DNA of 64,000 nt from Branchiostoma floridae (taxonomy: Eukaryota > Chordata > Leptocardii > Amphioxiformes > Branchiostomatidae): the NCBI RefSeq assembly GCF_000003815.2, contig NC_049981.1, forward strand, positions 8,316,085-8,380,084, given 5' to 3'. Made by a program: the position numbers and the translations under genes. Shown in pieces: positions 961 through 64,000 of the stretch; within the stretch, counting starts at the first letter, position 1, and each line of letters starts with the position of its first letter. The notes below the pieces were generated by a model. It was not told the origin of the DNA. It did no database searches and saw only the letters and a program-made list of their open reading frames with translations.

Positions 961-1082
961 CATGCAGGTAGCTTAGGAAAAGATGTACACAATGATATGC
1001 ATGTTATGCAAATGGTAACTTGATTTGCATAATTACTGAGGAATAATATAATTCCATTGTTTTCGATAACTTCAATAAAAGT

Positions 1083-2300
1083 AGACAAGTGGATCTAGCA
1101 ATTCTTGATTTTACTAAAGCCTTTGACAAAGTCCCACATAGCAGACTGATATCAAAACTAGAGCATTATGGAATTCAAGGTACCACACTTAATTGGTTAA
1201 AGGCTTTCCTAACGAACAGAGAGCAAACTGTAGTGGTAGAAGGGAAGGCCTCAGCTCCAGTTAAAGTAGCGTCTGGAGTTCCGCAAGGAACTGTTCTGGG
1301 ACCATTGCTCTTCCTCTTGTACATAAACGACTTGCCAGACCAGCTCGATTCAAGTGTGAGGTTGTTCGCAGATGACTGCCTGTTATATGTAGAGCTCTCT
1401 ACAAAGGAAGATTCACTACTTCTCCAGAAAGATCTGAACACCCTGGAAGAGTGGCAAAGGAAATGGCTTATGCAGTTCAATCCGGATAAATGTTATATCA
1501 TGCACATAACAAACAAACGAACCCCAAATGTATCCCCCTACCAGTTCTGTGGTCAGACATTAGCAACCACAAAAACCCACCCATACCTCGGTGTTACATT
1601 AACAACTGGTCTGAAGTGGGGTGTCCATGTTAACAAAATAACAACCAAGGCTAAACAGACACTGGGAGTAATCAAACGCAACTTGTGGGCATGCCCAGCC
1701 AGGGTAAAATCACTTGCATACACGTCACTGGTAAGACCAAATCTTGAATATGCTGCAACAGTATGGGATCCGTATACAAAGAAAGACAAAGATAAACTGG
1801 AAAGGGTACAGAACCAAGCTGCCAGATTCTGTACAAACAACTACAGCAGAGATGCTAGTGTTACCAAAATGAAAACAGATCTGCAGTGGACATCACTTGA
1901 AGACAGGAGGAAAATGTCCAGACTTTGTATGATGTACAAAATGACCAATAAACTGGTGGACGTACCGACTGATAAGTATCTAACACCAGCTCAAAAACGA
2001 ACTAGAAACAGTCATGCTTTCAAGTACCAGAGTTACCAACCTAGGATTGATGTGTTCAAAAATTCCTATTTCCCCAGAACTATTGTAGAGTGGAATATGT
2101 TATCACCAAGCACAGTAGGGGCATCTTCTCTGGATAGTTTCAGAGAACACTTGCATATAGATGTGCAAAAGTTAGGTGTGATGAGTCGTTCAGTGTAATA
2201 TAACCAGCTGCTGCCGCGCCGCGTGCCTGCGAAGCTGGTGTGTTACGCCGAAGGGCGGTTATACCGGCTATATAGATACAGATACAGATACAGAAAGTAA
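1083..2300 (+). mobile_element. 5'-truncated non-LTR retrotransposon (CR1/Jockey-like LINE)
   Basis: The element begins abruptly inside a reverse transcriptase reading frame, as expected of 5'-truncated LINE insertions, and continues to a 3' UTR that ends in a short tail of GATACA repeats (about 2267-2298). The GC-rich 3' UTR block at 2206-2265 recurs at 34751-34800, next to a similar tail, so this is one family with at least two insertions in the window. The sequence before 1083 has no coding continuity with it. The clade assignment is by general motif style only. Confidence 0.85.
1089..2198 (+). CDS. Reverse transcriptase, C-terminal two thirds (LINE)
   Basis: An uninterrupted frame of 369 codons encodes a non-LTR reverse transcriptase from the first catalytic-aspartate block (LDFTKAFDKVPH, residues about 7-18) through SGVPQGTVLGPLLFLLYIND to the FADD active-site box (about residues 92-95). 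It continues through thumb and C-terminal segments ending in the FPRTIVEWN block typical of these elements. The endonuclease and the N-terminal part of the reverse transcriptase are missing, so the copy cannot be autonomous although it carries no stop or frameshift. The listed start is a GTG inside the truncated frame, not a real initiator; the frame continues upstream to about 1071. Confidence 0.85.
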   Translation: MDLAILDFTKAFDKVPHSRLISKLEHYGIQGTTLNWLKAFLTNREQTVVVEGKASAPVKVASGVPQGTVLGPLLFLLYINDLPDQLDSSVRLFADDCLLYVELSTKEDSLLLQKDLNTLEEWQRKWLMQFNPDKCYIMHITNKRTPNVSPYQFCGQTLATTKTHPYLGVTLTTGLKWGVHVNKITTKAKQTLGVIKRNLWACPARVKSLAYTSLVRPNLEYAATVWDPYTKKDKDKLERVQNQAARFCTNNYSRDASVTKMKTDLQWTSLEDRRKMSRLCMMYKMTNKLVDVPTDKYLTPAQKRTRNSHAFKYQSYQPRIDVFKNSYFPRTIVEWNMLSPSTVGASSLDSFREHLHIDVQKLGVMSRSV

Positions 2301-20200: not shown

Positions 20201-23200
20201 GCGTGTTTACTAACATCCAATACTCGCTAAACAAGAACGAAAGAACAAGTTTTCTTAGGTACTCTGGCACGAAACGTGTTGCGGAACTATCAACAATCGT
20301 TCGCCGGTATAGTTATAGACAACTTGAGGCTATTGACTACTAGCAACTTGTGACGAAGAGAAGTGAATTGTTTAACAGAGGACTTCTCGGTGTATAACAG
20401 AAACAGGCTATTTTGCCGTGAATTCTATGCAGTGTCTGCTAAAATCGAACGACTCTGAAAATACGAATTACTAACTAGTGACAATGGGTGCCGTAACAGG
20501 GATTTGTGATTAGAACTTCTACTGCCCTCGATCGGGAGCTATCGAATTATATTTCTAACAGTTCAAGAAATTGAAGAGCCGCTGCCGGGGCTGGTGGAGG
20601 TAGAAGCCGGCCGTGTCTCGAGCTTCCCGCCTCGAGTTTATTCTCGTAGAGTCTCGTATAGTCTCGCGGTCACGTGGTAGTGACGCCCGTGGGTGCAATT
20701 TCCGTGGATAACGCCCTGTGGCGTGATCCATCCATAATTACTCTCCACTCAATAATGGTGATAGACGAGAGGTGGCATCAGACATCTTTAATTCTCTCAT
20801 GTCTTTCTCGGCGAAACAGAAAGATGTCTACGGCCAAACCGAGCGGAGTGGAGGTATGCCAAGAACGAGTCGAGTAGGGGGAGACAAGGAGTCTAGCGTG
20901 TGCGCTGCTGAATGAGGTTCCTCATGGCCGCGGGGAGGCGTAGTCGCTGTTCTGTGGAGAGTTTCAGATAGAGTAGGTCCGCATCTGAGTGCCAATCACC
21001 GTGCTGTTTCCGCAGTTCGCGTGGAACGCCCGCCTCGAACGCCAGGGTGTAACCGCCGCGTCTGAGGTCATGGAGTGTGTGGAAGCCCGAGGGGAGGCCC
21101 GCTTGTTGCACGAGTTTCGCGAATGCTTTAACTAGCGTTGAAGTTGTGACTGGCCGGTATGGCAGGCATTTTGTCGGAGGGAGAAGAAATGCGGGGGAGT
21201 CTGGGGAGGCAGGGATGAGTCGAAGCATGTTGGTGTACGCGCTGACTGGGCAGAGGGGTGAACCTGGATCGCTAGAACTGGGGTAGAGCAGACCCTCTCG
21301 TTTGCCTGCACGGTCTTTGACCAGGCGAAGTGGATGATGAGGCCCTCTGGGGCAGAGGCAACGTCGCGACGCCGTAGGTGTTTGTGTGGGCTGAAGGCCT
21401 TGGATGAAGGTGGAACCAGGTTGGACTTCCGCAGGAAGGCAAAGAATCCGATGAGAATGATGGCCCAGATGGTGGCATCCTTGGGTTGTTTGAGATCTAG
21501 GTGCTGGTGTGCATTCAGGAGGAACTCCAAGGTGACTGGATTGTGCGCTCTGGGTTGATGTTGCAAGGCTTTTTTGAGACCTTTCAGTGTTTGCTGGAGC
21601 TCGAAATGCTGAAGCGTGAAGTTGAAGTGACCGTGATACTGGTGGAGCAGTTTAACCGCAGAGAGGTGATGAGAGATGGTGGCAGGTGAACGGAGAGTAC
21701 GGCTCAGGAACTGGGCATAGCAGGAGAGGAGGTGGGCGGAGGCGGGGAAGGGTTCGAGCTCAAAGTAGTAGCAGAAGGCGATGTACGTCCGAAATTGTGA
21801 GGCGTGGTTAGCTTGTGTTGAGCTTGCAAAGGCCTGTTGCTGAGTCTGCAAGGTCTCCCGCTCTAGCCGAGCCCAAGCGACACCTGTGGCGAGAGATTTA
21901 AAGGGACAGTTAATGTGTGTGGAGACCCGAGACCTGCAGGGGCGATTGTCAGTTGAGGAAACGGGTCACCAAAGTTGCGAGAATTGGAACCATTTTTCTT
22001 CGACCAGGGTCTCTGTCCAGACCTCCGTCCCTTTGGCGTCGCGGAATCGTTGCTGGTAACTAGTGTCTGAGTGCCAGCGGCTTAAGAGATCGGCCAACGT
22101 GTTGTCACGGCCAGGGACGTGGTGCGCTGTGAGACTGAAGTCGAAGCTCGCTTGGAGGAAGACCAGCTCCCGTGCGCATGCCTGCATGTAGTCATCCGTG
22201 GAACGGCCGGAGCGTATAACATGGACTGTTGGCATATTGTCGCAAGCTAAGTCCACTGCGTATCCAGTCCAGAGGTCACCCCAGGCCTTGCAGGCGACGA
22301 TTATTGCCAGCATCTCCAATCTGTGGATGGGATGGCTACTGTGTATGACGTCGGGCGGGAATGCAGCGTGTAGGAAACGCCTGTCGAACGTTGCGCCGCA
22401 GCCTGTGAGGCAGGCGTCTGTTGTCGGCAGGTCAGGAAGCCGGCGCCGCGTAGGGTCCGGGATGATTGACACGCCATTGAAGTGCTGTAAGAAGGTCAGC
22501 CACCAGTTAACATCCTTCTTAAACTCGCTACCGATGCGTGTTCGGTGGTGGTGCCGCTGCAGTCCCTTTAAGGTGGCGATGATGCGAGACAAGAAAACCC
22601 TGCCGGGCGTGACGCAAGCTGCTATGAAGGACAGTTTGCCGAGTAACGACTGGACTTGTTGCTGTGTGGCTCTCTTCCTTGTCGCCCACTCTCGGAGTTC
22701 CTGGAGGGTGGCTGCTAGGCGATCTGACGTGATTCGTTTTGACATTTCTTCAGTGTCGTACTCTATGCCCAGAAAGGTCATCTTTTTGGCGGGTGGTGAA
22801 GCCTTCTCTGCGGATTCTGCAAGGCCAAGTTGTTGGAAGGTGGAGCCGAGGGTAGTGAATGCGTCAGGTGCCTTGTCCGGAACCTCTGCTCCACCGAAGT
22901 CGTCGATGTAATTTACGCAGTCATACCCATGCGATGAGTAGACATGATTGACCGCGTTAGTTGTCCTCTGACAGGCCATACTCGCCGAGTGCAGACCAAA
23001 CGGGAACGAGGAGTCGAAGGAAAACTTCTTTCGCCATCGGAAACCCAAGAGGTGGTAATCGTGGGGATCAACAGGGATTTGCCGGTACGACCGGCTAAGG
23101 TCGCGTTTGAACAACAAGCAGCCGGGTCCTTTCTTGCGAATAAGAGCTTGTCTACAACGTCGGCGTGTGCGACTGAAGAAGAGTGGTTGCGACGCATGCT

Positions 23201-26200
23201 TTCTGGAAGGGAAGTTGCGGCGTAGCCCAGTGGCCAGCCAAACTCCAGGAAGTCAGCAACTGCTTTGTCCTGGTAATTGGACAAGGCCTCTCGCCAGGCT
23301 AGAATATTCAGGTTTGACGGGACAGGAATCCTCAAACCGCAGAAATTGTAGCTCCCTGATTGATAAACAGCTTGGTGGAGTTCGCATGCTGGACTAAGAT
23401 ACGGTTGAATTGGCGACTGTTGGGGTATGGGAATGCGGGGGTTAACGGACGACACTACAGACTTGGGTGTTGTATAGCAGTACTGAGAGGGGCCTGGGTT
23501 GCCAGGCTTGTGCTGACTGCGAAGTCCCTCCGCGGTAGGTGGACTGGCCTCGGCCTTCCGTGACTGTACTGTCCGCTGTGATGAAGACGATGCCGCCATA
23601 TTACTGACTGGGACGACTTGTGAGCTACGAGGCGCTGTGGAACCGATTTCATAGTTATGAGTGTGGCTGTGTTGGAATGGCGCTGCCTGAAGACCGCGGT
23701 ATGGGATGCTAGTCTTCTGTGACTGTACTGTCCGCTGTGAAGAAGACTTAGGAACCGTGTCCAGGAACGGGATGCCGACAGAGCCAGAGCTGGCCTTGAA
23801 GTCGCTGGGAGCTAACGCCGTGTGACCCGCTGTGAGGTGTGTCACCTGTCCGAGAACTGGGAGGTTTATGTGGGCCCCTTCGTGAGTTGTACGGTACTCT
23901 GAGTCGGTTAAACAAGCGTTTGTCAAGTCCGGTAAATCTGTCCTGTGACATAGGCCTAGTCAGACCCTTGGCTGCCTTGTGGCTGCGTAGGCCTCCCGTG
24001 CTTCCTTGCTCTTGTAGGGACAATCCGTTGCCGGATGGTGCCCGTCAACCTCTGGCCGATATCTTGAGCAGAACTTGCACACGTGGGACAACGGTTGCCC
24101 TGATGGAGCGGTGTGACCGCTAGAGAAAGGGCAATTGCCGTTCTGGTACTTGAAGCAAAAGCCGCTAATCTCATTCCTTGCAGATTGTGTGGCTGGGGCA
24201 GGAACCGCAGGTTTGGTAACTGATTTAGGCTCTGGTCTGCGGAGGTACTCCGCCTTCAGCTCGGAAACCTGCACCATTGTGATTGAACTGTCTATCTCTA
24301 TAAAACCGTGTTCGACATGTTGGAACAGTGTCTTGTAGAAATTACGAACCCCTTCAAACGTGTATATGGGAATATCTAACATCAATGTCCGTAGGATGTG
24401 TCCCCTGTTGTAACTTTCCATGGGGATTGTGTTCAGACTTAGTATGATGGCCATTTCTCCCGAGATCAACTGGAACCATGTCAAATTGTTGTGTTTCATT
24501 TCCGCTGATGTAGAAAAGATGAATTCATGGTGCCACCTTACCTCCCGCTTGATTTCGTCATACGATTTTCGTGCCAAGCCGCTCACTAACTTCTTCTTAC
24601 CTTGGGGAGAACTTGCGAATCGTTGTGCGTGGCCGTCGTCCCAGCGGCGATCGTACTCTGGGTAAGGAGGAGGGGCGTTCGTCCTTGGTGCCTGGGGATA
24701 GCTACCGTACCCCGACTGTGTCTGCCTTGCGTCTGGAGCAACCTCAGGGCCGTAGAGACGGTGTAAAGCCCTCACTTCCTTTGCAGTGGGGTACGCGTCC
24801 GTGCCGCTTGGCGCTGTGAGTCCTCCACGACTCGGAACTCCATTGTTTACAGTACGGGGGCCGCCATCTTGGGCCGCAAAGGCTCCTGGGACAAATCCAG
24901 CGCGAGCGTAGTGCGCGTGCGCTGGATGCGTTGGGCTTCTCCGCCTTGGGCGCCGCCATCTTGGGTCACGACAAGGTTAGGGGGAAGGGGTGCTCTTCGG
25001 GTGTTTTCGCGCTGTTGAGATCCCAGTATAGCTAAGTCGGCCTGCAACAGCTCCAAGTCGCGAGAGACGCTCAATATCTCTGCTTCCAGCTCGGTCTCCG
25101 CCTGAGTTTTTGGCGTAGACGAAGGTAGGCGAGTACGAGTCGGTGTTGTTGTAGTCGTTGTCGGTTGTTCCGGCCGATTCGCTCTTGGGAGAAGATACTC
25201 CGCCCCGCTGGTATATCTCGCCGGCGGACGAGTCTTTCTTCTTCCGGCACTGAGCATCTTGTGACGAGGAGAAGGCGGCAAACGACTTATTCGCGACTGT
25301 TTACGGGATTGTTTACGTATAGAAGCCGGCCGTGTCTCGAGCTTCCCGCCTCGAGTTTATTCTCGTAGAGTCTCGTATAGTCTCGCGGTCACGTGGTAGT
25401 GACGCCCGTGGGTGCAATTCCCGTGGATAACGCCCTGTGGCGTGATCCATCCATTATTATAGTATGCAGGCTGTGGACTTTACAAACATAAGGGATGTAG
25501 GACGTTACTGAGGAGAGAAAGGGTGGACTTTGAGTAACCCGCCCCGAAATGATATGATTCATTTTTCCTTTTCGAAGGATCTTAAATGTTGCTTTTGTCA
25601 TCCAAATATACGACATGATATAAAAAATTCTAGTAGAAAACTAAACAAGTAGAAATGTCAAAGTAACGATTCATCAATTAACTATAATTGTCTTGCAGGC
25701 GCCTGAGCTCTTTGCTAGTCAGAGGTACACCAGAACGGTTGACTACTGGAGTTTTGGCACACTGGTGTTTGAGTGTATCACAGGTTCCCGACCATTCCTA
25801 CCCAACAGGAACCCTGTTCAATGGTGAGGAACTTTCTTTCGCAAATACTTTGTCCTCTGTCTTCAGTGTTGTGTAGTCCAGTGGTTAGCGATCCTGCCTT
25901 TGGACCAAAAGCCGTGTCATTGAGTATGAATCCCGACTGTGACACTCATCCAACAATACACACTACTGGAAAGGGTTGCAGTCCTTAGCACAGGACTTAC
26001 ATGTAAAGCCAAATTTGCGTATTGTTATTTGTGCTTGTCATGGGCATTTCCCCAGTATAATAAGCCTGTTAGTATTGTATTGTATTGTGTAATTATCCAG
26101 TCTAAAAAGGAAAATTGGCCTCTGTTTTGCAGGCATCTTGAGGTGAAGAGAAGGAAGCAGGACACACATATCAGGGCTTATGAAGAAAGGACAGGTTTGT

Positions 26201-29200: not shown

Positions 29201-32200
29201 TAAACAATTTATCCATTGTGTTATCTCAGTGAACTACGTGGGGGAAATGATCAGATATATGTCCTTTAGGAAAATAACCTCATGGAGAAACACCCAACTG
29301 ACCGTAAATTGGTCACCCTGGAAGAATTCTTGGCTGCAGACTTGTTTATTAAAGACGCTCGTACGGCGAGAAATCCTCAGAAGAAATATGATGCCACACA
29401 GAGCTTGACGCAGACCGACTTTGATGTCTTCCAATTAAGGACAGCTTTTCACTTCCCGACCTGCGCGCTTTCCATAAAACGGCATTATTAACAAATCGAC
29501 CGTAAACTGGTAACCTTACGTTATGTAAACAACACTAACTGCCTCAGAGTCCATTTTAGACCAAGTTTTGTGACAAGTGTTTAATAGTAATGAGCTCTAG
29601 GGTTAATATTCATGAGCTAGACACTAACACGCATGCGTAGCGTCAGGAGACGGTTAGAGGAACCTGAAGAGAGATACCTCCACAAGGCACAGAGGGTCTT
29701 GTGGACGATTGAATAAACCGTAAGCAGTACCTCATCGGGCCTGAGTCATCATTCCAGAAGACCACAGCTGAGAGATCTGGATACAGAGATCGGTGACAGA
29801 ATGTTACATGGTGTCAGAAGCCGGATTCAAGTCCACACGCGTTGAAAAGACACGACGGTCAAGAGAAGACGAAAAACGAGGTAGGCCCCTCCTCACTCAA
29901 AGATCCATTGTTTTCAAGCAGTCCCAGGAAGTCGGGCAGGCATTCCAATGTCTGGAATCTGACAGCTCTAACTAGAGTCAGGCTGGGTCAAAGTTGCTGG
30001 AAGCCCTGTCCATCACTGTCTCGTTAGGTCCACTTACAACTTGACAACTTAAAAACAATGGCGGAAGGCAGTAGCTTAAGACAGCCAGCCTGCCTAGATA
30101 TTAATGCAAGGAATCTTAACGTAGAGTGGAAGAAATGGAAGGAGGAGGCACTACTGTACATTGACCTGACTGTGTCAGAGGATGCCAAGAAACGCAGAAA
30201 AACGTTGCGGTATCTTATGGGTGACCAGGCACGTAAAGTCCATGATACCTTGTCCATCCAAAAGGCAGATAATGATGGGAACATGGTGGCGGTTGCCAAA
30301 GAAGAACAAACCGTCGAACAGATTGTGGAAGCATTCGACAAATACTGCAACCCAAAACAAAACGAAACCATTGAAAGGTACAAGTTCTTTACCAGAGCAC
30401 AGCAAGCGGGTGAAGCGTTTGACACATACGCCACTCATCTCCGAAACCTAGCAAAAGATTGCGGGTTTGGAGCGATCGAGGAGTCACTGATCCGAGACAG
30501 GATCATTTGTGGAATCAACGATGCCAAGATAAGGGAGAGACTACTGCGTGAGAAAGACTTGACCCTCGACAAATGTGAGGAGATATGCCGTGCATCAGAG
30601 ATGCAAAATGTGAGGATGATAGAGCCAACGGCCGTACATGCTGTCCAACAGAGAGCACAGGCAACACCCCAGAAGCCCATGACCAACTGTAGGTACTGTG
30701 GAAAGAAGCACCGACAGCAGAGAGAGGCTTGTCCAGCGTATGGAAAACAGTGCTTGAAATGTAAAGGCCAAAATCATTTCGCAAAGGTGTGTAAGAGTGC
30801 CGATAAGAAACCTCGACAGGTTGGGAAGGCACAAGGTCACGCCAGGAAGACAAAAGTCCACGCTCTGGAAGAAGATGACTATGTGATGACCATCACAGAT
30901 GCAAGACTACGCACCGAGAACACGTTCAGTATGTCCCACCCAAAGTATGCAAAGCAAGTGCATGCTAAGATGAAGTTAGAAGGACGCATGGTCAACTTTC
31001 AGCTTGACCTCGGAGCAACGTGTAATGTGATGCCGAAGCAGACATTGCTCAGAAACAAGATACAGTACAAGACAAGTGGAGCACGGAGAGTGTTGAAGAT
31101 GTACAATAACTCAGAGATAGTGTCAGAGGGAGAGACTGACCTGAAGATGATCAACCCCAAGACTGAGAAGAGGTATGTGGTGAACTTTGTGGTCATTGAC
31201 TCAGACAGTATGCCGTTGCTTGGAGCGAACGCCATACAGCAGATTGGAGTAGTGACTGTTCATTAAGATAGAATCCTAGCGATCCGTGGTAGCATACCCA
31301 TGGATGAGACAAGCACGGTCAACAAGCCGTTGACAAAGGAGAGTCTGATCCAAGAGTACAAAGATGTATTCACTGGGTTAGGAAGGCTGCCAGGAGAATG
31401 TCATCTAGAAACAGATGACAGCATCACACCTAAGGTCCACCCACCAAGAAGAGTGCCCGTAGCAATAAAGGAGCAGCTCAAGACGGAGCTAGACAGAATG
31501 ACGAGAGAAGGAGTCATTGAACCGGTGACAGTACCAACACCATGGGTGTCAAGCCTGGTCACCGTGAGGAAGCCATCGGGAAAGCTGCGAATTTGCATTG
31601 ACCCAAGGGACCTAAATGAAGCCCTCAAGAGAAGTCATTATCCAGCACCGACGATTGAAGATATAATCCCAGAGCTAAGTAAAGCCAAGGTGTTCAGTGT
31701 CCTTGATGCCAAGAATGGCTATTGGCAAGTAGCATTGGACGAAGAAAGCTCAGTTCTGACGACGTTCAACACTCCCAATGGACGCTATAAGTGGAAACGC
31801 CTCCCCTTTGGGATTAAATCGTCCCCAGAGGAATTCCAGAGACGCCTGGACCAGACGTTAGAAGGTCTAGCAGGCGTGAAGCCCGTGGTGGATGACATCT
31901 TGGTCTGGGGAGAAGGAGAAACCCTGGCGGAAGCCACCTCAGATCATGACAGGAACCTGAGAAGCCTCATGCAGAGATGCAGAGAGCGCAGTCTGAAGCT
32001 GAATCCAGACAAGGTCAAGCTCAGAGAGCAAGAGGTTCCGTTCCATGGTCACCTAATCACAAGCCAAGGGCTGAAGCTGGACCCCTCCAAAGTCACAGCA
32101 ATAACCCAGATGCCCCGACCAACTGACGCACAAGGAGTGCAACGCCTGATTGGTTTTGTGACGTACCTAGCCAAGTTCTTACCAAAGCTCAGCAACATAT

Positions 32201-35200
32201 GTGAGCCTTTGAGGAAGCCGACTGTGAAAGACAGCGAGTTTGTGTGGCTGGACGCACACGAGAAGATACTGGAAACCCTGAAGAAGATGGTGTCCACGGC
32301 ACCAGTGCTGAAGTACTACGACACAACTGAAGAGCTGACGCTCCAGACAGATGCATCGAGCACGGGACTGGGAGCAGCCATCATGCAGAATGGCCAGCCT
32401 GTTGCGTATGCTAGTAGAGCTCTGACCGACACGGAGACGAGGTATGCCCAAATTGAGAAGGAGATGCTCGGAGTAGTGTTTGGTCTGGAGAGGTTTCATC
32501 AGTACACCTACGGACGAGAAGTGAATGTGCAGACCGATCATAAGCCGCTAGAGATGATTGTACTGAAGCCACTTCATGCAGCACCAAAGAGATTGCAGCG
32601 CATGATGATGCGTTTGCAACAATACAATGTAAAGGTGAGTTATAAACCAGGAAAAGAACTCTACCTAGCTGACACGCTAAGTCGCGCATACCCACCAGAT
32701 GACGGAAGAAGAAGCAAGACCGAGATGGATGCTGAGCAAGTGAACGCAATCAGTGAGTTCATCTCAACGCCAACGATAGAAGATATTCGCGAGCATACCA
32801 GCGGAGATGCAGACATGCAGAAGCTGATGCAGTACATAAGAGAAGGATTTCCAGAGAAGGGAAGAATCCCGGCAAGATTGATGCCTTACTTTCACATAAG
32901 GGATGAGCTAACCCTCCATGACGGCATCGTGCTGAAGGGCCTGGCAGTGCCACTGACGCTGAGAAAGAAGATGTTGCAGAGGATACACGCATCGCACATG
33001 GGCATTGAAGCATGCCTGAGGAATGCGAGAGAGTGTGTGTTTTGGCCCGGCATGAACGCCGAAGTGAGAGATTACGTCAGCAAATGTGACGTGTGCCAAA
33101 CTGTGGGCAGCAAGCAGCAGAAGGAAACACTACAACCACACCCGGTGCCGAAGAGACCGTGGGAGCGAGTGGGAGTAGATCTCTTCCAGTTCAAAGACAG
33201 AGACTACTTGATCACAGTGGACTATTACTCAAATTTCTTTGAGATAGACACATGCGAAAACACACGAGCCACCACAATCATAAAGAAGCTGAAGACGCAG
33301 TTCTCCAGACATGGCATACCGGATGTAGTGTTCAGCGACAATGGCCCACAGTTCGCAGCTGCTGAGTTCGAGAAGTTCACACAAGAATGGAACTTTACAC
33401 ACCAGACCTCGTCACCAGGTTATCCACAAAGCAATGGGAAAGTGGAGAATTCAGTGAAGACAGCCAAGCAGCTGATGGAGAAAGCCTGGATCGGGAACAC
33501 AGACCCGTACCTTGCATTGTTGGATTTCAGAAACACACCAACACAAGGAATTGGTAGCAGTCCAGTACAGCGACTGTTTGCCAGAAGAACCAAGACAACA
33601 ATGCCAACAGCATTGTTGGAACCAGACGTGCCCAAGGAAATCCCACAGAAGATCCAGAAAGAGAAAGAAAAACAACGCCGCTACTACAATAGGCAGGCGC
33701 GAGATCTGCCAAGGTTGAGCATTGGAGACGCTGTGCGATGTCAGCCACATGGAAGAAACACCAATCGCTGGAAGAAAGGCACGGTGGTAGCAGAAGTAGG
33801 GAACCGATCATTTGAAGTAGAAACCGAAGATGGAGGAGTGTACCGCAGAAACAGACGACATCTGCGGAAGACACCGGAAACCCCACCAGCAACAGTGGGA
33901 ACTGACGACGTTGACCAAGGAGATGCTCCAGAACCAACGGTCAACGACGAACCAACAACAACGACGACAACACCACCAGCAGAGACAGCAGTGAAAGACG
34001 ACACAGCTGGACAACAGATGACGACACGGTCCGGACGAGCAGTTCGACCTCCAGTGCATCTGAAGGACTACGTTCGCGAGTAATGCATGAACAGTAATGC
34101 ATGAACAATTAACTCAAGAATTGACTAACTAACCGACTAACTAACCATGAGAGAGACTCCCGATCAGCAGAACACAAGAACTTTAGATCGTGAAAGATCT
34201 GAGAAAGAAACTGAACTATAGACACATTGATTGTATAAGAACTGAAACCTGAGTGTCAAATATGTGAAAAGATCTAAAGAAAAGGGGATGTGACAAGTGT
34301 TTAATAGTAATGAGCTGTAGGGTTAATATTCATGAGCTAGACACTAACACGCATGCGTAGCGTCAGGAGACGGTTAGAGGAACCTGAAGAGAGATACCTC
34401 CACAAGGCACAGAGGGTCTTGTGGACGATTGAATAAACCGTAAGCAGTACCTCATCGGGCCTGAGTCATCATTCCAGAAGACCACAGCTGAGAGATCTGG
34501 ATACAGAGATCGGTGACAGAATGTTACAGTTTGACTGTGGAAACTTGGTAAAAATTATCAACTCAGTTGATTATTTGCTTGGACGTGTAAGCCCCAAAAC
34601 ATGTGAGCACATCCGGTATAATTTGTTCATTTTCGAATCAGTCTAACATATGGTCTACTGATTTTTATTTCAGGTCCGTTTGTCTGGACCGGTATAGCAA
34701 GAACCGGTTCCCACTGGTACCCACCCCTAGTGCACATATTTACATCTAGCTGCTGCACTGCCACATGCCTGCAAAGCAGGCGTATTGGCCCGAAGGGCTA
34801 TAGATGCAGATATAATGTAGATACAGAAAAGAAGTAGTCTTGTGGTCTCATGTGGCATTATGGTTAGACCGTTAGCCCTAGAGTCAAGGTGTTGTGGGTT
34901 CAAACCTCTACCATGCCCCAATACTGACTCTTGGGAAAGGTAATTTACAAGAGTTTCTTCCCATCAGACTCGGGTAAAATCGAGTATGTCAGGGGTGTCG
35001 AGCTAATACTTACTTTTAGATTACTAGTAGTACATAGCAATTTTACAGAATATGTGTTTTATGGAATGCATAGTAGTTTTAGTTATATACAGAATACATG
35101 ATGATTTTATGGAATTCATACAATCCACAAAGAAACATATTACTTAATTAAAGATCTATTAGTAAGGACTTACTAAAAGTAAGGATTGTATCTAATAGTA

Positions 35201-54700: not shown

Positions 54701-57700
54701 CGGCCCCCGTTATCATTCAATTTCAACAATTATGTTTGCACAAAATTATCATCCTTCTGATATTGATATTACAATTTCCAGTTCTTGATTCCTGCTGCCT
54801 GGTAATCAAGTTACTTTCAAATGCAGAAAATTTTGCGGTTGTTTTATGTTTGCAATTTTCATGGTGGTCACTTCTCATACAATATTGAAATATTGGCTAA
54901 TCAAATCCTGTAAAAAATTGCCTGCTCATGGCCCTTGGTAACAAGTTGGCTGGGCCAATTATTGTGAAATGACGTAGATTTGATATTGTGAATTTCAGAA
55001 AATGTTGATTTCCTCTATATTTCATTCTATTTTGAGGCCTGATCAGGCCTTGCCAGGTCTTAACAAACCTTTGTTGCCACACACTCACACCATTCCCCCA
55101 TCACCTTTTGTCTATCTCCCAAGCTATAACTCACAGTAGTTTTTCCTTAAGGAAATTTCATTAAAACCCCCATTCATGGCCATGGGGCCCAGATAGGGTA
55201 GGCCACTGAGGTAGACCAGCCCAAAAGCCAACCCCATCGATTCCGGAAACCCGCACTGGGGAGATGGTCCATGGTATTATACAGTAGGTCATATGGAGAA
55301 ATGAATTAATATTGGTAGAAAAGTAGTACTGACACTGTACTACGTATTCAGAGAGTACAAGCGATTAGATCAGTGACAGTTGATTATGCCAGAACTGTCA
55401 AAGTCAAAAGTGGACTGTTTTGTCTGTTTGTAGCAACCTTTCCAAGTAACCAGTAAGTGGTTTCTGAATGGCAGTTTGTACAGGCACCGGGTTTTCCATT
55501 ACAGTATTTGACTACAGTACAGTACTCTGAAACGCATTTAAGTTCGCGGTATGATGCTACTGTGAACTCAAAACCAAACAGCAAACACTCCATTTTCCCG
55601 ATATCGAAAAATTAAATCCCCGCCAACTCAAATGCAATTTCCGCCCCTCAATCCTGATAAACATGGCAGCCAGTTTGGAACCTGGCACCCCAACTCGCAA
55701 AAGAAAAATCTTAAGAGAGGTAGAACAGCAAATATTATCAATATGCAAAAATGCAGTTGTGTGTACTTTGCTTGCTTCTGAAAGCTCAAAATCTAAATTT
55801 TTTCTTTGATAATAATGTTAACCAGTGGGATGGCCAAGAATACAGTGTATAACAGGAGTTTCGCCCTCCGAGGGTTTCTAGTCTGGAAATCCCTAAGGTG
55901 GGTCGACTCGTCGAGGCTTCTCTAGTTCATCAAAATTGTTCCATTGTCATACTTTATTTTGTCCTGTAAGGCCATGATTATGTGGGCGAAGCCCAACATT
56001 TAGTTTTTCCTCAGATATTTGCATATTCCAACCGGAAATCAGAAAAAATGGAAGCTGTAAACATGCACTCCACGTTTCAAGCTTTTTGATTGGCTTACAG
56101 TCGCACTTTCTCGGTTTTAAGTCAGAGGTGAACCTATCAACGCACAGAACACAATCGGCATCGACTTTGATAATAGCCAATCAGAACTCAGAAAAAATGG
56201 AAGCTGTCAACATATACTCCGCGTTTCCAGCTTTTTGATTGGGACAAAGTCGCGGACTGTCTCGGGTGTACGCAGAACTGAACCAATCAATGCACAGGAC
56301 ACAAAATGGCATTCGGCATGCAGTTTGACAATACAATAGCAGCTGAGACGACCAAACAGGCGCTCAANNNNNNNNNNNNNNNNNNNNNNNNNNNNNNNNN
56401 NNNNNNNNNNNNNNNNNNNNNNNNNNNNNNNNNNNNNNNNNNNNNNNNNNNNNNNNNNNNNNNNNNNTGAATGGACGTGTTCAAGCACGCAAATACATTT
56501 GTATACCAGTCCTGTTAAAACGTGCGGTTGTAACATGTTGTAGCACTGGCTCAGTGGTATTATTCACGTGTGGTAAACCAACTCTCCGGGATCGAATCCG
56601 TGGACAGATAATGTTTTTTAATTTTTTTGTCTTTTTGCTGCATTTTCGCGAAAATGTTGCCTTTCTTGTTGCTTCTTTTCTTGCGATTTTTGCTTTCTTT
56701 TCCCTTCGCCCACATCCTGCATTTTTTTCAAAAATGTTGCCTTTCTAGTCTTTCTAGCTTATGCTCCAGAAGTAAGTAGCAGCCCAGAGGTTATTTAACT
56801 CCCCACAGCTTGTCAAGACATCTGCCAAGATGATCAAGCTGACCCTGGATGGACAGACTGTTGTCTAGGGCTATACCTTTGGGTAATTACAAAAAGGCTG
56901 GGATTGGTCAGTAACCACATGACATAATTCTATCCCGAGTAGAGAGGGTCCATGATACATGAGGATTGGTCAGAAGAGGTCACATGCCTATAGCACCCAT
57001 ACTTCTCAGTCTGATAACACAATAGTTTTGCTTGTCACAACACTTTTTCCTCATTTGCATGAAATAGTCTCAAACTTTTTATCCACAGAAAATGGGAGCT
57101 TATCATTGGCTGAGGGGAAGTAGCCATGGGCTAAATCCCAGTACCAGGTTTTTACTGACAGCTACATGGCAAAAATGGAAAATTTATCTTCACTATACAT
57201 TACAGCTTGAACACCGCTACAATTCGTAGTACAAAATGACCAGGATAAACTGTAAAATGTAATAATGCAGAAACCTTTGCGATGGTTTAATGTTCGCAGT
57301 TTTTGCGGTGGCCGCTTCACCACGAACTTAAAACCACCGCAAACATTTTATCCATGGCAGTAAGAGACTACAGTGCATGGTGCTACCCCGAACTTAAAAC
57401 CACAGCAAAAAGTCCTTTATCCCGCTACCACGAAATTGAATCCCCGCGAACTTAAATGCATTTGCAGTACCTGCCAACTGCAAGTTAACCAAATATTCAG
57501 CACTACTAAAGCCGTGTAGGTCAAGTTCATGAATTTGAAATGTTTCTAGGAGTAGGAACAAAGCCTTACCAAGCAGGAACTTCCGTTGTCCGTTCACTTC
57601 TGCCAAAGGAACCTTGTCCAGTTCAGCAAAGCATGGTGGCTCTAATGGGAGTAACAAACAAACAGTCCTGTATGTTTATACAAGATGTACCTAACTAATA

Positions 57701-60700
57701 TGTTCTATAATTGTCTACTCACTGCTTTAAAGCAAATCAAATAAAGAAGTCTGAAGCCCTGTGTGTTGGCAGATCCGTTTGTTTCTTCAAACTTTGTCTG
57801 GACGCCAAGGTGTGCACAAGAATGACGTCATTTCGTATACAATTCCATGCGATGTGCGCTTGAGCGCCATCCCCCCACCATGTCATACCTGGGCCATAGT
57901 AACGTTTGATATGAGTGCTCTGGACCGGGTGATAACTTGCAATGGGTTATTACATTTGGGTTCTTAAAAATCACATGGGCTTCTATAGAATAATTTGAAC
58001 GCGCTTGGCATGCGCCACTGTCAAAATCATGCAAGACTTTTTTGTTTGTTTGAGGTCACCAAATTTCTGGGGCATTTTGCATTAGATTTTAATTTTTGGA
58101 TTACCCGGTATAAGGTTTGATATATTAGTTAAATTATACAACACAGTGTATTCTTCAACACCCACAGTCCCAGCCCTCCCCTGGGTTGGACAGCCCTCCA
58201 GCCTTTGGGCCATCCTACATTGTACCTGTGGTTGGGCTGGTACCTCGGGTAAAATGGAATACACCATGTTGTATTCTATATCATATTCACTTTGTTTGTC
58301 TTCTTCCTAAATTGTCTCCTCATAATAGTGTATCTCAGTATCTGTCTCTGCACAAACACTGAATGCAATTTGAAGCCTCATTCTGTAACAGGACTGCTAG
58401 TGCTATTCAACCCCAAATGCTTGAGATACATGATTGTAACTATTATTCTATGATCTGAGCAATCATAAAATAACAGGTTTCTTACTGGCTTCCTCGAAAC
58501 AAGAGCACCACTCATTTGCTGACAGGATGCCGTCCTTGATGCGGTCACACCTGTCGATGAAGGGAGTGATGCAGTGCTCGTACTCATCGTACTCTATGAG
58601 TGACAGCTCCTTCTTGCTCAGGAAGAGGTCGAAGTTCACATCCAGCTTGCTGAACATCCAGCCCACAGCTGGCTCATAGCATATCTGTACATTCTTGTTG
58701 GCTGTGGGGAAAATATAGAGGAGAGCTCAAAATGGGAAAACCTAAAATCCTGAAACGTCCTTTTGAAAAACGATTCTGCCCCAATCAGGAGATGTTTGGG
58801 GCTAGACAGAATAGGTAGGGTCTAGGCTTTTTGTTTTGGTCAAAATTTGTTCAGTTTAGAAGTTCAGTTGGCGTAAGGTCTGAGAGTTTAGAGTTGTTTC
58901 TGCTAGCTTTCAAAAGGATGTCAAATGGAAATACTTCTAGTGACACTCAAGTTGAAATGGAAAATGATTCTAAGACATAGTATGTACTTTATAATCCTCC
59001 CCCAAAATTTGAGTTGTGCACCTTGTTTCTGGTTGAGGCCATGAACATACTATCCCTCCTCAAAACAACACTGTACTGTGGGAGGATGTATACATGAGAA
59101 GTCATTGATTTGTCCTTGTCTGTTGGTTATTTACTTACTGTCAGGCTTTTCCTTCTCCTCGTTCTTCCTGAGGACTTTAAACCACTCCAGCAGGCGGTTC
59201 CCCATGTCCTCTAGTTCCTCAGTGGAGCAGACTGAAGACCAAATTGAATACACTGTTAGCTTTCCTTTGCAAATGTACATTATAGCGCCGTCTTCTACAT
59301 GTCAGGGTTGGACAAGTTCAATGGCCTGACTGCCCGGGGCAAGTGAACGTGCCCATGGGGCGAGTGCATAAGTAAGTATTGACAAAACATGTATTAAATC
59401 GGCCTTGCAGTTAACACTGAATTGCGCCAAGATTTTCAATCAAACTATGCAGAAAAGCAAACGCATCAAATTACAATATGCATAAATAGCGTTCAATTGT
59501 TACCAATTATTATATCGTGAGAGTTGTGGACTAATACAATTAAAAGTGGGTCTCTGTTTGAATTTATCAGAAACAAGCTAACTGTCCAGCACGAATAGCA
59601 GTTCAGGTCTGTAGACCGACACTGAGGAGTTTAGCAATGTACGTTCAGCACTCGTGGTGTAGTATCCCTGGCTTGGGAGTACTGACGTGAGTTTCTCAGT
59701 AGTCTACCATGCTGTTCTCCTCGAGTTGGAGGCAGTCAGAAACTGGAGCATGGTTGATTAGGAGATTGTTGTACTTTCTTTACAAAGTTCAAGTAGAGGT
59801 CATGTCTGTGATCAGAAAGAGTCTGTAAAATTAGTCCATTATATGTTCCCAAGGAATCCAGATATGTAGTGTACTGCCGACTCACCACCTCGTTCGCTTC
59901 GCTTACTCGGTGGTTTTATTCGGTGGTTACAGCAAAGGACCAGGCGTTCTGACACCATATACACCTCGGGGCGGGTCATTAACCCTTCATTAAAAAATGC
60001 AATCTTTACCCATGCTTTAAGGTATAAAGAGAAGATTTCACGCATTGCAACTTTGAACTACTGTAAATGCATTTAAATTCGCTGGGATTTAATTTCACGG
60101 TAGCAGGAAAAGGGACTTTTCGCGGTGGATTTAAGTTGGCGGTAACACCATAGACTGCAGTGTAATACCGTAATAGAAAAATGTTTGCGAAAACCGCAAA
60201 CATTTATCCACCGTGAACATTTCTGCATTTACAGTATATGATCAATTCTAGATGTTCCACCTTTGCCATCGAGCTCCTCCCCCTCTTCTTCTTCATCCTC
60301 CTCCCCCTCTAGTCCTGGGTCCAGGGGGATCTGGTCCTCTAGCGGTGCCTGGAACTGTACCTCATCAGGCGTGATGATCTCACTCCTCTCTGCAGGGGGG
60401 AGGTTGGGGGCAGCTTGAACTGTTAGTGAGGGCACAGCAATGTTCTCCAAGTTTACTATTACATCCTCCTCTGGCTTCTCTTCCACTACTGGGACAAGCT
60501 CCTTATGGACTGATTTGTCAGTTTCTAAACCTTCAAAATTGTCTCTTTGGAGTGTTGTTACCTTAGGATAGCTGACTGGAAAGGCACTAAAATCTTTCTT
60601 CTCTATACTGAAGTCTATCTTATTAGAATGATGTGTAGGAAACTTGACATAAGCATAGACAACACCATCTGATTTCCCTGTTGGTATTTTATACCCTTCC

Positions 60701-62742
60701 ACGTCTGCATAGTTTGTGTCAGAAGTTACGTCTTCAATACCACCAACCATTTTTCCTTCAGGATACTTTGATTCAATCATAACAGGCTTTTTCTCTGTAA
60801 GACTTTCTGTTTTTTGTTCACCAGAGGATGACAATGGATCCATGCTGACGTCTTCTATCCTTTCCACCATTTTGTGGAGAATGTATTTCTTGTCTTGTTT
60901 GGAGATGAACAAATTTGGTTTTATTGCACTATCAGGCTTTTGTTCCTCAAACTTGAATGAGACATGCCTTTGTATTCCATCATTCTCTGTAACATGTGAG
61001 TTTTCTATGATTCTGTTGGACATTGTGGTCTGAGATTTTCTACTGTGTTTAAGAGCACCTGCTTTGAGATGGCTGTGCTGTTGAGAGTCTGATGGGAAGG
61101 ATGAAATCGAATTGGGAATGTTTCTCTCTATATTCATGGGGTTGCTATAACTTACTTCATTCTTAGAATCATCCTCAACAGCAAACTTTTGTACATCAAC
61201 AGCCTTATCTTTCGGGAGATTCTTGGTATAGCTTTCCTTCTTAATTGTATCTTTCTGGAAATGTCCATACTTTGGTTTATACAGTTTCTCTAACACTACT
61301 TTTTTGGTGATTAATGGTTTTGACCAGTAGCTACCGTACTTAGATTTTGACTTAAAGTTAGTTCCAGACTTGCCTCCATAAGGGTAGTAACTACCTGGGG
61401 CATACTTGGCAGATAAATGCTTGTAGTAAGACTGCTTAGAGAAAAGGTTATGAGGGGACCTGTTATATAATGACTTTTTGTTAGACATCAAGCTAGCTTG
61501 GGCTTTGGGGTCAGTGGTCAGCTCTTGGGATTTAGTTACAGAAAACAAATCTGGAAAAAACAGAATAAGACATACAAAAAGAAAATTAGTACCAACAGAA
61601 AGTGATGAAACAATCAAAAGACTATGACGTGCAGAAATATGACCTAAACTCTCAAACAAAACATCTATTACTACACAGTCACATACTGTTCAAATGTTTG
61701 TAGAGAGGACCTTTCAAACAACACAACTTTGAAAATATGTTACATGAGAAGGATGAAAGGACTCAGGAGAACAGAACATGTATAAGATGCTTTCCAACAG
61801 AAACAGCATATAAGTGTTGACATGACACTTAACATTTTACTCTGCAATTTGCAAATCAACTGTCAAAGTGTTGAAAAAATTCTATTAAATTTTGTTATTA
61901 ATACTAATAGTAACTTTTATTTGATACAAAGGATGGTTATTGAGAAACAAATTCATAATTACACTACATTGTACAATTACAATTATATAAAAATTACTGA
62001 ATAGTGATCCTTACCAATTACATCATGTAGTATCATATCAAAAACAAAGGTCAGTGAGACAATATGATAAGCAAACTTTCACTTACCTGGGATCTGAGGC
62101 TTGCAGGGGCATTTGCCAGTGCACTCCTCTTGGATATCCTTGCCAGATACACAGGCCTGTGGATATATTTATTCACATTAATACATTTTTGTACATGTAC
62201 ATCATAAACAAAAATGACAGCCTAGACATGTCAACAATTTCTTTTTCATCCCTTAATTGTAGCAAAGAATGCAGTAGCTGCTGTACATGTGAATACATTT
62301 TTAAATTGATTTTCAAACATGTATTGCTTTAGTGATGAACATCACAACGCAACTTTCTTATGCCCCTTGCACAGTAGGATTGGCCGATGTTCACGAGTGC
62401 CTAAGCCCCGTCCTATGTGATAGGATAGAACTGGTGAGAACCCTGCTGCATTGAGCCACCCCACATGACCTTGTTACCTCCATTAAGAATGGACACATAG
62501 ATATGTCCATGAAAAATGGAGAACATTTAGTTTTTAAATTAGTAGTCCAGTACAAAAGGAGAATAAGAAGGTCTTGTTTAGTGAGTTTTGTCCAAATTGC
62601 CAGACATACCTGATACATGAGCTTACACTGTGAGGAGTAAGTGACACCATCAGTGCCACAGACAGGCTCCGGGCGCACAACAGGGCACGGGGTGCAGCCA
62701 TACCTGTCCTTCTTCTCCTGGTACTTGGACCACGTCTTCTTC
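51702..62742 (-). CDS. SPOCK: Testican (SPOCK) proteoglycan, 5' exons missing, with a giant inserted exon
   Basis: Secreted modular proteoglycan family of the extracellular matrix. Minus-strand exons: 62742-62610, 62156-62087, 61550-60261, 59231-59139, 58701-58486, 57641-57570, 53559-53428, 51898-51702; every junction keeps phase. In order: Kazal domain (CTPCPVVRPEPVCGTDGVTY..CKL to CPCKP) over two exons; a 430-residue unique segment; the osteonectin-like EF-hand domain (helix with LLEWF; loops DVNFDLFLSKKE and DRIKDGILSANE; Cys pairs); a thyroglobulin type 1 domain (PRCSEDGYY, CWCVDKHG); and an acidic tail with an ASGDDYEEEE glycosaminoglycan-attachment-like site. This order is diagnostic of testicans. 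About 733 residues are visible against roughly 440 in the whole human protein. The upstream limit is an acceptor CCAACAG before 62742; signal peptide exons are not seen. It converges on the IKK gene. Confidence 0.92.
51950..52110 (+). mobile_element. tRNA-derived SINE
   Basis: The head has a good B box, GGGTTCGAATC (about 52009). The body TTGGGAATAAGGCACTTGTC...AAATGAGTACC follows the pattern of other SINE copies. It is in the last testican intron. Confidence 0.65.
52370..52508 (-). mobile_element. tRNA-derived SINE remnant, opposite orientation
   Basis: On the minus strand, TTGTGGTTAGGGTTG (A-box-like, about 52495) precedes GGGTTGGAATCCC (B-box-like, about 52440-52450) by tRNA-like spacing. 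Confidence 0.5.
53636..54710. mobile_element. 1.1-kb TIR element (ACGGGGGCCGCCCTAAGATG termini)
   Basis: The left end ACGGGGGCCGCCCTAAGATG and the right end CATCTTAGGGCGGCCCCCGT are perfect complements. TA lies outside both ends (53634-53635 and 54711-54712). Internal frames are short and unrecognised. It lies in the testican intron after the thyroglobulin exon's acceptor side. Confidence 0.88.
55440..55600. mobile_element. Partial MITE of the CTGTAAATGC family
   Basis: Contains GCATTTAAGTTCGCGGT and a reversed CCGCCAACTCAAATGCA-like half as in the copies at 57248-57469 and 60061-60234, but the ends are decayed. Confidence 0.5.
56036..56330. repeat. Tandem duplication of a ~140-bp unit next to a gap
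   Basis: Two head-to-tail copies start at about 56038 and 56188 with the shared phrase CAGAAAAAATGGAAGCTGT, followed by GCTTTTTGATTGG and CCAATCA-like landmarks in the same order. The second copy runs toward the N gap at 56368. Confidence 0.8.
56368..56467. other. Assembly gap of exactly 100 N
   Basis: One hundred N bases, a conventional placeholder for a gap of unknown size. It follows a tandem duplication, which may explain the failure to assemble. Confidence 0.99.
56545..56625 (+). mobile_element. tRNA-like SINE head
   Basis: ACTGGCTCAGTGGTATTATT is A-box-like and CGGGATCGAATCC B-box-like with tRNA spacing. No functional tRNA cloverleaf was found. Confidence 0.45.
57248..57469. mobile_element. 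MITE of the CTGTAAATGC family
   Basis: It runs from a CTGTAAAATG-like end to GCATTTGCAG with TA beside it, and holds the same internal GCGGTG/CACCGC palindromic blocks as the copy at 60061-60234. It lies about 100 bp from the testican exon at 57570. Confidence 0.7.
58134..58276. mobile_element. MITE, ATGAAATACAACAT family, copy 3
   Basis: Ends ATACAACA and TGTTGTAT with the internal GTATTC/GGAATAC pair; the interior shares CACAGTCCCAGCCCTCC-like wording with copy 1. Confidence 0.75.
60061..60234. mobile_element. MITE of the CTGTAAATGC family beside the giant exon's donor
   Basis: CTGTAAATGC (60061) and GCATTTACAG (to 60234) are exact complements, with TA duplicated outside (60059-60060 and 60235-60236). 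Interior blocks such as CGCGGTGGATTTAAG are palindrome-rich. It lies 26 bp downstream, in gene sense, of the giant testican exon. Its terminal repeat supplies an in-frame TAA if the intron is not removed. Confidence 0.88.
60261..61550 (-). CDS. SPOCK: Giant phase-symmetric testican exon encoding ~430 unique residues
   Basis: The exon is 1290 nt, runs from acceptor TTTTTCCAG to donor AAAG/GTGGAA, and is open throughout in the frame set by both neighbours (phase 1 on each side). No family is recognisable in the sequence. The first third is Tyr/Lys/Ser/Gly-rich and basic (SYYKHLSAKYAPGSYY, KSKYGSYWSKP). The middle carries two copies of KMVxxIEDVxxD 120 nt apart (about 60838-60875 and 60720-60755). 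The last part is strongly acidic (EGEEDEEEEGEELDG). It contains no cysteine and few hydrophobic stretches, so it is probably disordered. Ser-Gly pairs (KSG, SSSG) could bear glycans. Vertebrate testicans have only a short linker here. Confidence 0.85.
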
Positions 62743-63842: not shown

Positions 63843-64000
63843 GATTTTGCTCACATACCATGGCATCCTGCACATCCATAGATAATCTAACGTGATCCAC
63901 AACATTCCCCGAACCTGGACTTATTTACGACAGCTAAGTACAAAATAAGCCCTTTTTCCGCATCTTGTGCAAGCAAGCAAGGGGAATTGACATTGTACAG

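Follow-up and report, generated by a model that had tools for sequence, protein, structure and literature searches.

The testican gene of Branchiostoma floridae carries a 1.29-kb exon that adds 430 residues between the Kazal/follistatin and EC domains of the encoded protein. This exon is real, and the segment it encodes is likely a splice-variable linker that has so far been found only in Branchiostoma. Comparison of annotated testicans with the genomic sequence suggests that the first 387 of the 430 residues are optional, with a choice between 3' splice sites at 61550 and 60389 deciding their inclusion. We place the probability of this reading at roughly 65%, use of both sites in B. floridae being predicted from a record of B. 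lanceolatum. Measured from cysteine to cysteine, the B. floridae linker would span 436 residues in the long form and a predicted 49 in the short form. Positions refer to the window, the 64-kb stretch of B. floridae DNA analyzed here.

The testican gene and its large exon

Eight exons on the minus strand, joined with the large exon (exon c) included, encode 733 residues plus a stop codon in frame. The product is identical to residues 110-842 of P0001 (B. floridae LOC118410823 isoform X1), a long-form record. All eight exons have AG acceptors, and all except the last (h) have GT donors. The first exons of the gene lie beyond position 64000, outside the window, and the start of P0001 is, by eye, a hydrophobic stretch. 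The exons within the window are as follows.

62610..62742, minus strand: exon a, start of the Kazal/follistatin part; join identical to P0001, Kazal_2 (Pfam)
62087..62156, minus strand: exon b, end of the Kazal part; donor CAG/GTAAGT, used by the long form and the predicted short form
60390..61550, minus strand: exon c, part specific to the long form (c5), 1161 nt, 387 residues, Cys-free, Tyr/Lys-rich, basic start, GC 0.39; present in P0001, P0002 and P0003, absent from P0004
60261..60389, minus strand: exon c, core, 129 nt, 43 acidic residues, GC 0.58, in long and short records; placed by the P0004 junction, with use of the site predicted for B. floridae
59139..59231, minus strand: exon d, start of the EC (EF-hand) domain; join identical to P0001
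58486..58701, minus strand: exon e, EC domain; SPARC_Ca_bdg (Pfam), join identical to P0001
57570..57641, minus strand: exon f, start of the thyroglobulin type-1 domain; join identical to P0001
53428..53559, minus strand: exon g, thyroglobulin type-1 domain with CWCV; Thyroglobulin_1 (Pfam), join identical to P0001
51702..51898, minus strand: exon h, acidic C-terminal tail with DASGDD, stop codon; join identical to P0001

Joined without exon c, the translation matches the Pfam families Kazal_2 (E 2.5e-11), SPARC_Ca_bdg (3.3e-25), and Thyroglobulin_1 (1.9e-15) in testican order. Exon g contains the CWCV motif of testicans (YCWCVDKHG), and exon h encodes an acidic tail with a Ser-Gly site (DASGDDYEEEE), a predicted site of glycosaminoglycan attachment. 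The DASGDD sequence is identical in P0001, in the long records of B. lanceolatum (P0002, isoform X1) and of a B. floridae x belcheri hybrid (P0003, LOC144904693 isoform X1), and in the short P0004 (SPOCK3 of B. lanceolatum, 466 residues), with Y or F before EEEE. Given the order of the Kazal/follistatin, EC, and thyroglobulin domains, the CWCV motif, and the acidic Ser-Gly tail, the gene is a testican (SPOCK). In the older B. floridae gene models P0005 (C3YFT4) and P0006 (C3YFT3), the testican is split into two scrambled proteins and exon c is missing.

Exon c (61550-60261, minus strand) spans 1290 nt in phase 1-1 and encodes 430 residues with no in-frame stop; 2000 dinucleotide shuffles of the exon contained a mean of 26.8 in-frame stops and a minimum of 11. 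It is bordered by tgttttttccAG before 61550 and AAG/GTGGAA after 60261. The coordinates, splice sites, and phases put forward in an earlier, sequence-only reading hold, with the join matching B. floridae X1 over all 733 residues. The phase is not special within this gene, as exons d, e, f, and g are likewise phase 1-1 and a multiple of three in length.

That reading also described the insert as Cys-free, Tyr/Lys-rich, basic at the start, and acidic at the end, a description borne out by the records. The insert lacks Cys in 3/3 long records, and the net charge of the B. floridae insert by fifths is +12, +5, -1, -4, and -21; the charges of P0002 and P0003 are similar, but with a positive third fifth. 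Tyr occurs 20 times in the first 387 insert residues of B. floridae and 20-23 times in c5 across the three long records, where the pI is 9.0-9.2 for c5 and 4.1 for the core (43-53 residues). Copies of a proposed internal KMVxxIEDVxxD duplication can be found in all three long records, but the insert does not align to itself clearly better than its shuffles do. The observed self-alignment score was reached by 81/300 shuffles for P0001, 59/300 for P0002, and 24/300 for P0003, and by 108/200 in a first version of the test; on these scores, the duplication was rejected as a repeat unit.

Two probable acceptors in one exon

P0004 corresponds to the long B. lanceolatum record (P0002) with exactly its first 403 insert residues removed. 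In its sequence, CPCKPQIP is followed directly by the acidic part that closes exon c (ERSEIITPDEVQFQAPLED), which leads into exon d. Because P0004 joins the Kazal exon inside exon c, the exon likely consists of two parts, an optional 1161 nt and a constant 129 nt. Removal of the c5 segment from P0002 leaves 466 residues whose only two differences from P0004, at 363 and 459, lie well away from the junction. B. floridae holds CCCCAACCTCCCCCCTGCAG at the matching place, with 60389 as the next base; the internal acceptor, CCCCCCTGCAG, precedes this first core base in frame. Joining exon b to 60389 in B. floridae keeps the frame and gives ERSEIITP, the same ERSE junction as in P0004. Among the 150 AGs from the intron between exons b and c to the end of exon c, those at 61550 and 60389 tie for the most pyrimidines (14/16), the former tract being U-rich (12 T/16) and the latter C-rich (2 T/16).

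At the level of protein records, P0002 and P0004 place two acceptors with one donor in the same species, B. lanceolatum; in a published annotation of that species, isoforms were added with the help of RNA-seq assemblies and PASA (PMC9673378). We propose that one exon is served by two 3' splice sites 1161 nt apart, such that splicing to 61550 would give the long form and splicing to 60389 the short form. The first 387 residues of the 430-residue insert would be optional, and the 43 acidic residues would be kept in both forms. Large alternative 3' splice site events, in which one donor is paired with either of two acceptors and the frame is kept, are a known kind; here, the acceptors lie 1161 nt apart and the optional part amounts to 387 residues. 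A strong donor-like sequence, GAA/GTAAGT, is also found at 61155 inside exon c. An intron from this donor to the internal acceptor was considered and set aside, as its 766 nt would shift the frame.

Among 68 fetched proteins, the long form was observed in 3, the short junction in 1, and the exact whole-exon skip junction in 0, a tally in which a B. floridae short form or skip form may hide because the proteins were clustered at 90% identity (the P0004 cluster has 7 members). Since long records outnumber the short one, exon c could be constitutive at full length, with P0004 reflecting a faulty gene model or infrequent splicing. The greater U content of the distal acceptor relative to the internal one is in keeping with such an explanation. 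We nonetheless regard it as unlikely, given that the segment missing from P0004 is exact and in frame and ends at an AG that is conserved in B. floridae, pyrimidine tract included. In addition, the long records are labeled isoform X1, a label not known to be given to genes with a single predicted isoform.

The sequence-only reading had instead treated exon c as a cassette, included or skipped as a unit. Its premise of optional inclusion survives insofar as the insert is not full in every amphioxus record, but skipping of the exon as a unit is not supported: P0004 uses the internal acceptor and keeps the acidic end of the exon, and the exact skip junction is the one missing from all 68 proteins. 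Skipping 1290 nt in phase 1-1 would keep the frame, as had been noted. It would, however, leave only 6 residues from Cys to Cys, not a vertebrate-like linker as had been supposed (15-17 residues in three vertebrate testicans). One record, P0005, does omit the whole of exon c, but by a join from 62087 to 59252, which lies 21 nt ahead of the acceptor of exon d and brings in seven residues of intron sequence. Because of this different acceptor and the seven added residues, P0005 argues only weakly for a skip; it also lacks flanking exons and the signal peptide, and many errors are known in the original gene models of B. floridae (PMC6071037). As to details, the "skippable exon" model probably does not hold. 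Given P0004 and the 0/68 count, we placed whole-exon skipping behind the internal acceptor as the main event, and a cassette, whether acting alone or beside that acceptor, appears clearly improbable.

Distribution and origin of the insert

The long insert is present in B. lanceolatum (P0002) and in the hybrid (P0003). It is in frame in three Branchiostoma genomes. Among P0001, P0002, and P0003, pairwise identity is 76% for c5 and 79-88% for the acidic core, compared with 91-94% for the N-terminal part, 95-98% for the follistatin part, 97-98% for the EC and thyroglobulin domains, and 87-92% for the tail. In these three records, the insert evolves faster than the rest of the testican and takes in-frame indels. 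Invariant columns of c5 (251/408) are nevertheless clustered: the observed count of runs of at least 8 was reached by 0/5000 column shuffles, and the longest run (16 columns) by 250/5000. The internal acceptor falls within the longest run, AAPNLPPAERSEIITPDEVQFQAPLED, that is identical among P0001, P0002, and P0003.

When used as a query, the insert retrieved four proteins at E up to 10, all Branchiostoma testicans (5505 candidates). A query with the long-form alignment retrieved those four plus P0068 at E up to 1e-8 (7388 candidates). P0068 was rejected as a relative of the insert, as it matches the follistatin part (P0001 residues 61-169, score 42) and not the insert. No organism outside Branchiostoma was found to carry the insert among the 5505 and 7388 candidates sharing five-residue words with the queries; distant relatives may be missed because both searches required such words, and no Asymmetron protein was seen among the candidates. 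With matches confined to Branchiostoma and with other amphioxus (B. lanceolatum and the hybrid) carrying the insert, the earlier suggestion of a lineage-specific segment is sustained within these searches. The split between B. lanceolatum and B. floridae is dated to ~72 million years ago in one study, and that between B. belcheri and B. floridae to 130 million years by other studies quoted there (PMC6305399).

Base composition sets the two parts of exon c apart. The GC content is 0.39 for c5, 0.58 for the core, 0.50-0.56 for the other seven exons, and 0.30-0.42 for introns, and GC3 is 0.39 for c5 and 0.65 for the core. The intron-like composition of the 1161 nt suggests that it was appended to the upstream side of a short, acidic exon that already existed, and we infer that the core is the older part. 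In such a course of events, a distal acceptor would have been gained upstream, and ~1161 nt of intron sequence would have become coding ahead of the acidic core. Our fullest scenario is tentative and, taken as a whole, somewhat doubtful. In it, ~1.16 kb of intron was made coding by gain of an upstream acceptor, and one splice choice decides whether a matrix proteoglycan has a short acidic linker or a dipolar, Tyr/Lys-rich tether of 436 residues by which the Kazal domain is uncoupled from the calcium-binding core, an arrangement kept for some 70 million years or more. If true, this would be a traceable case in which a conserved matrix protein acquired a large coding segment from an intron and the older short form continued to be produced. 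It would also let the role of follistatin-EC spacing in testicans be tested.

The base composition of the insert, unlike that of the neighboring exons, also speaks for capture from another gene or a mobile element instead of growth from an intron, in which case splicing may still match our best explanation. We consider capture highly improbable. No Pfam family scored above its cut-off with the insert (RNA_pol_Rpb1_6, at E 0.034, was below its own), solved structures gave nothing better than E 0.72, and matches at E up to 10 were Branchiostoma testicans only. No second copy of the insert lies within the 64-kb window, though others may exist elsewhere in the genome; on this ground and the lack of a family above cut-off, a mobile-element origin was rejected.

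Scarcely credible is the alternative that exon c is a last exon ending the testican before the EC domain: without the 60261 donor, which has only 6/9 matches, the frame stays open for ten more codons to a TAA at 60231-60229, and AATAAA and ATTAAA occur at 59920 and 60093, but the read-through tail is present in 0/68 fetched proteins, the TAA lies within the terminal arm of a repeat, and the donors of exons e, f, and g also have 6/9 matches. This repeat (60059-60236), which starts 24 nt beyond the donor of exon c, has 13-nt perfect inverted ends (TACTGTAAATGCA / TGCATTTACAGTA); a second stretch at 57338-57469 is 80% identical to its ~60189-60059 portion.

Properties and possible role of the linker

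To place the insert among other testicans, Cys-to-Cys linkers were measured on 8/68 proteins. The lengths in amphioxus were 436 (P0001), 57 (P0004), and 13 (P0005); in vertebrates, they were 15 for testican-3 (P0007), 15 for testican-2 (P0011), and 17 for testican-1 (P0050), which agrees with the short vertebrate SPOCK linker described earlier. Vertebrate SPOCK1, SPOCK2, and SPOCK3 share with the amphioxus protein the Kazal/follistatin, EC, and thyroglobulin domains and the acidic tail. They differ in the linker, with 15-17 residues in the three records versus 436 or a predicted 49 in amphioxus. Insect Cow (carrier of wingless) resembles the amphioxus long form in that the corresponding linker is long (119 residues in the Eurosta record P0057). 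The linker of P0066 has 177 residues. For Drosophila Cow, the follistatin domain is reported to end at 274 and the EC domain to begin at 428 (PMC4216105). Because fly Cow is also long there, linker length alone is neither new nor unique to amphioxus. The Cow linker, however, is Q/N/S-rich and bears no visible similarity to the amphioxus insert. That flies lengthened the same linker with a different-looking sequence hints that this position tolerates or favors tethers.

Splicing is also known to alter a testican product in the testican-3 variant N-Tes, which is a shortened product and not a change in linker length. P0001-P0003 and P0004 represent the same gene and its orthologues, named uncharacterized or SPOCK3, and the insert is already annotated in P0001-P0003. 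No description of the relation between long and short forms was found among the papers listed for testican/SPOCK with amphioxus or for the locus names; the one paper found on both testican and amphioxus deals with thyroglobulin, and PMC6071037 mentions neither SPOCK nor testican. What is new here is the insert sequence, its size, and the sign, from protein and genomic sequence, of two lengths from one exon.

The insert is plausibly disordered. AlphaFold2 modeling of X1 (23 aligned sequences) gave a mean pLDDT of 38, which is mild support for disorder because the EC domain also fell mostly under 50. Exon c modeled alone likewise had a mean pLDDT of 38, with one 7-residue helix in 429 residues. 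A charge-hydropathy test called the insert disordered but did the same for the folded follistatin part and so gave no discrimination. Within exon c, the conserved P0001 residues 457-492 (DTNYADVEGYKIP...SDGVVYAYV...IDFSIEKKDF) form four short low-confidence strands in the X1 model, and these are absent from the exon-alone model. A small folded element at this place is possible on the modeling.

The suggestion that the insert is glycanated found no backing, as no SG position is common to the three long records (238 and 419 in P0001, 353 and 431 in P0002, and 460 in P0003). A glycosaminoglycan site within the insert was set aside on this basis, and the likely site is DASGDD in the last exon. The insert has one N-glycosylation site in P0001, one in P0002, and none in P0003, and the heparin-type BBXB pattern occurs not at all in P0001, once in P0002, and twice in P0003. 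RXXR, KR, and RR cleavage patterns are missing from the insert in all three. Among the three long records, c5 holds no conserved heparin-binding, cleavage, or glycosylation motif.

The follistatin-EC-thyroglobulin triplet of testican-2 is reported to form a moderately compact, calcium-stabilized core and to promote cell migration (PMC7763218). By analogy, a long linker would likely loosen such a core, leaving the follistatin domain no longer closely tied to the EC-thyroglobulin pair. The short form would present an acidic linker of 49 residues from Cys to Cys. The long form would present a Cys-free, probably unstructured module with a basic, Tyr/Lys-rich start and conserved short blocks. Acceptor choice would thus likely change the looseness of the tether between the two domains. 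The putative basic arm could be offered to the matrix or to acidic partners, which might include the acidic tail or the sugar chains of the protein itself. Reported ligands are Wingless for fly Cow and Wnt5a for human testican-2 (PMC4216105), so a basic arm near the sugar-bearing tail could alter such binding.

Elsewhere in the window, reverse-transcriptase ORFs occur at 1047-2195 (plus strand) and 21969-23252 (minus strand), the latter just under the Pfam cut-off and adjoined by ORFs at 22916-23959 and 23963-24976 (minus strand) with no Pfam match. A further retroelement consists of two adjacent long ORFs at 30028-34080 (plus strand). The first (30028-31263) has a sub-threshold aspartyl protease match, and reverse transcriptase, RNase H, and integrase families are found in 31267-34080.
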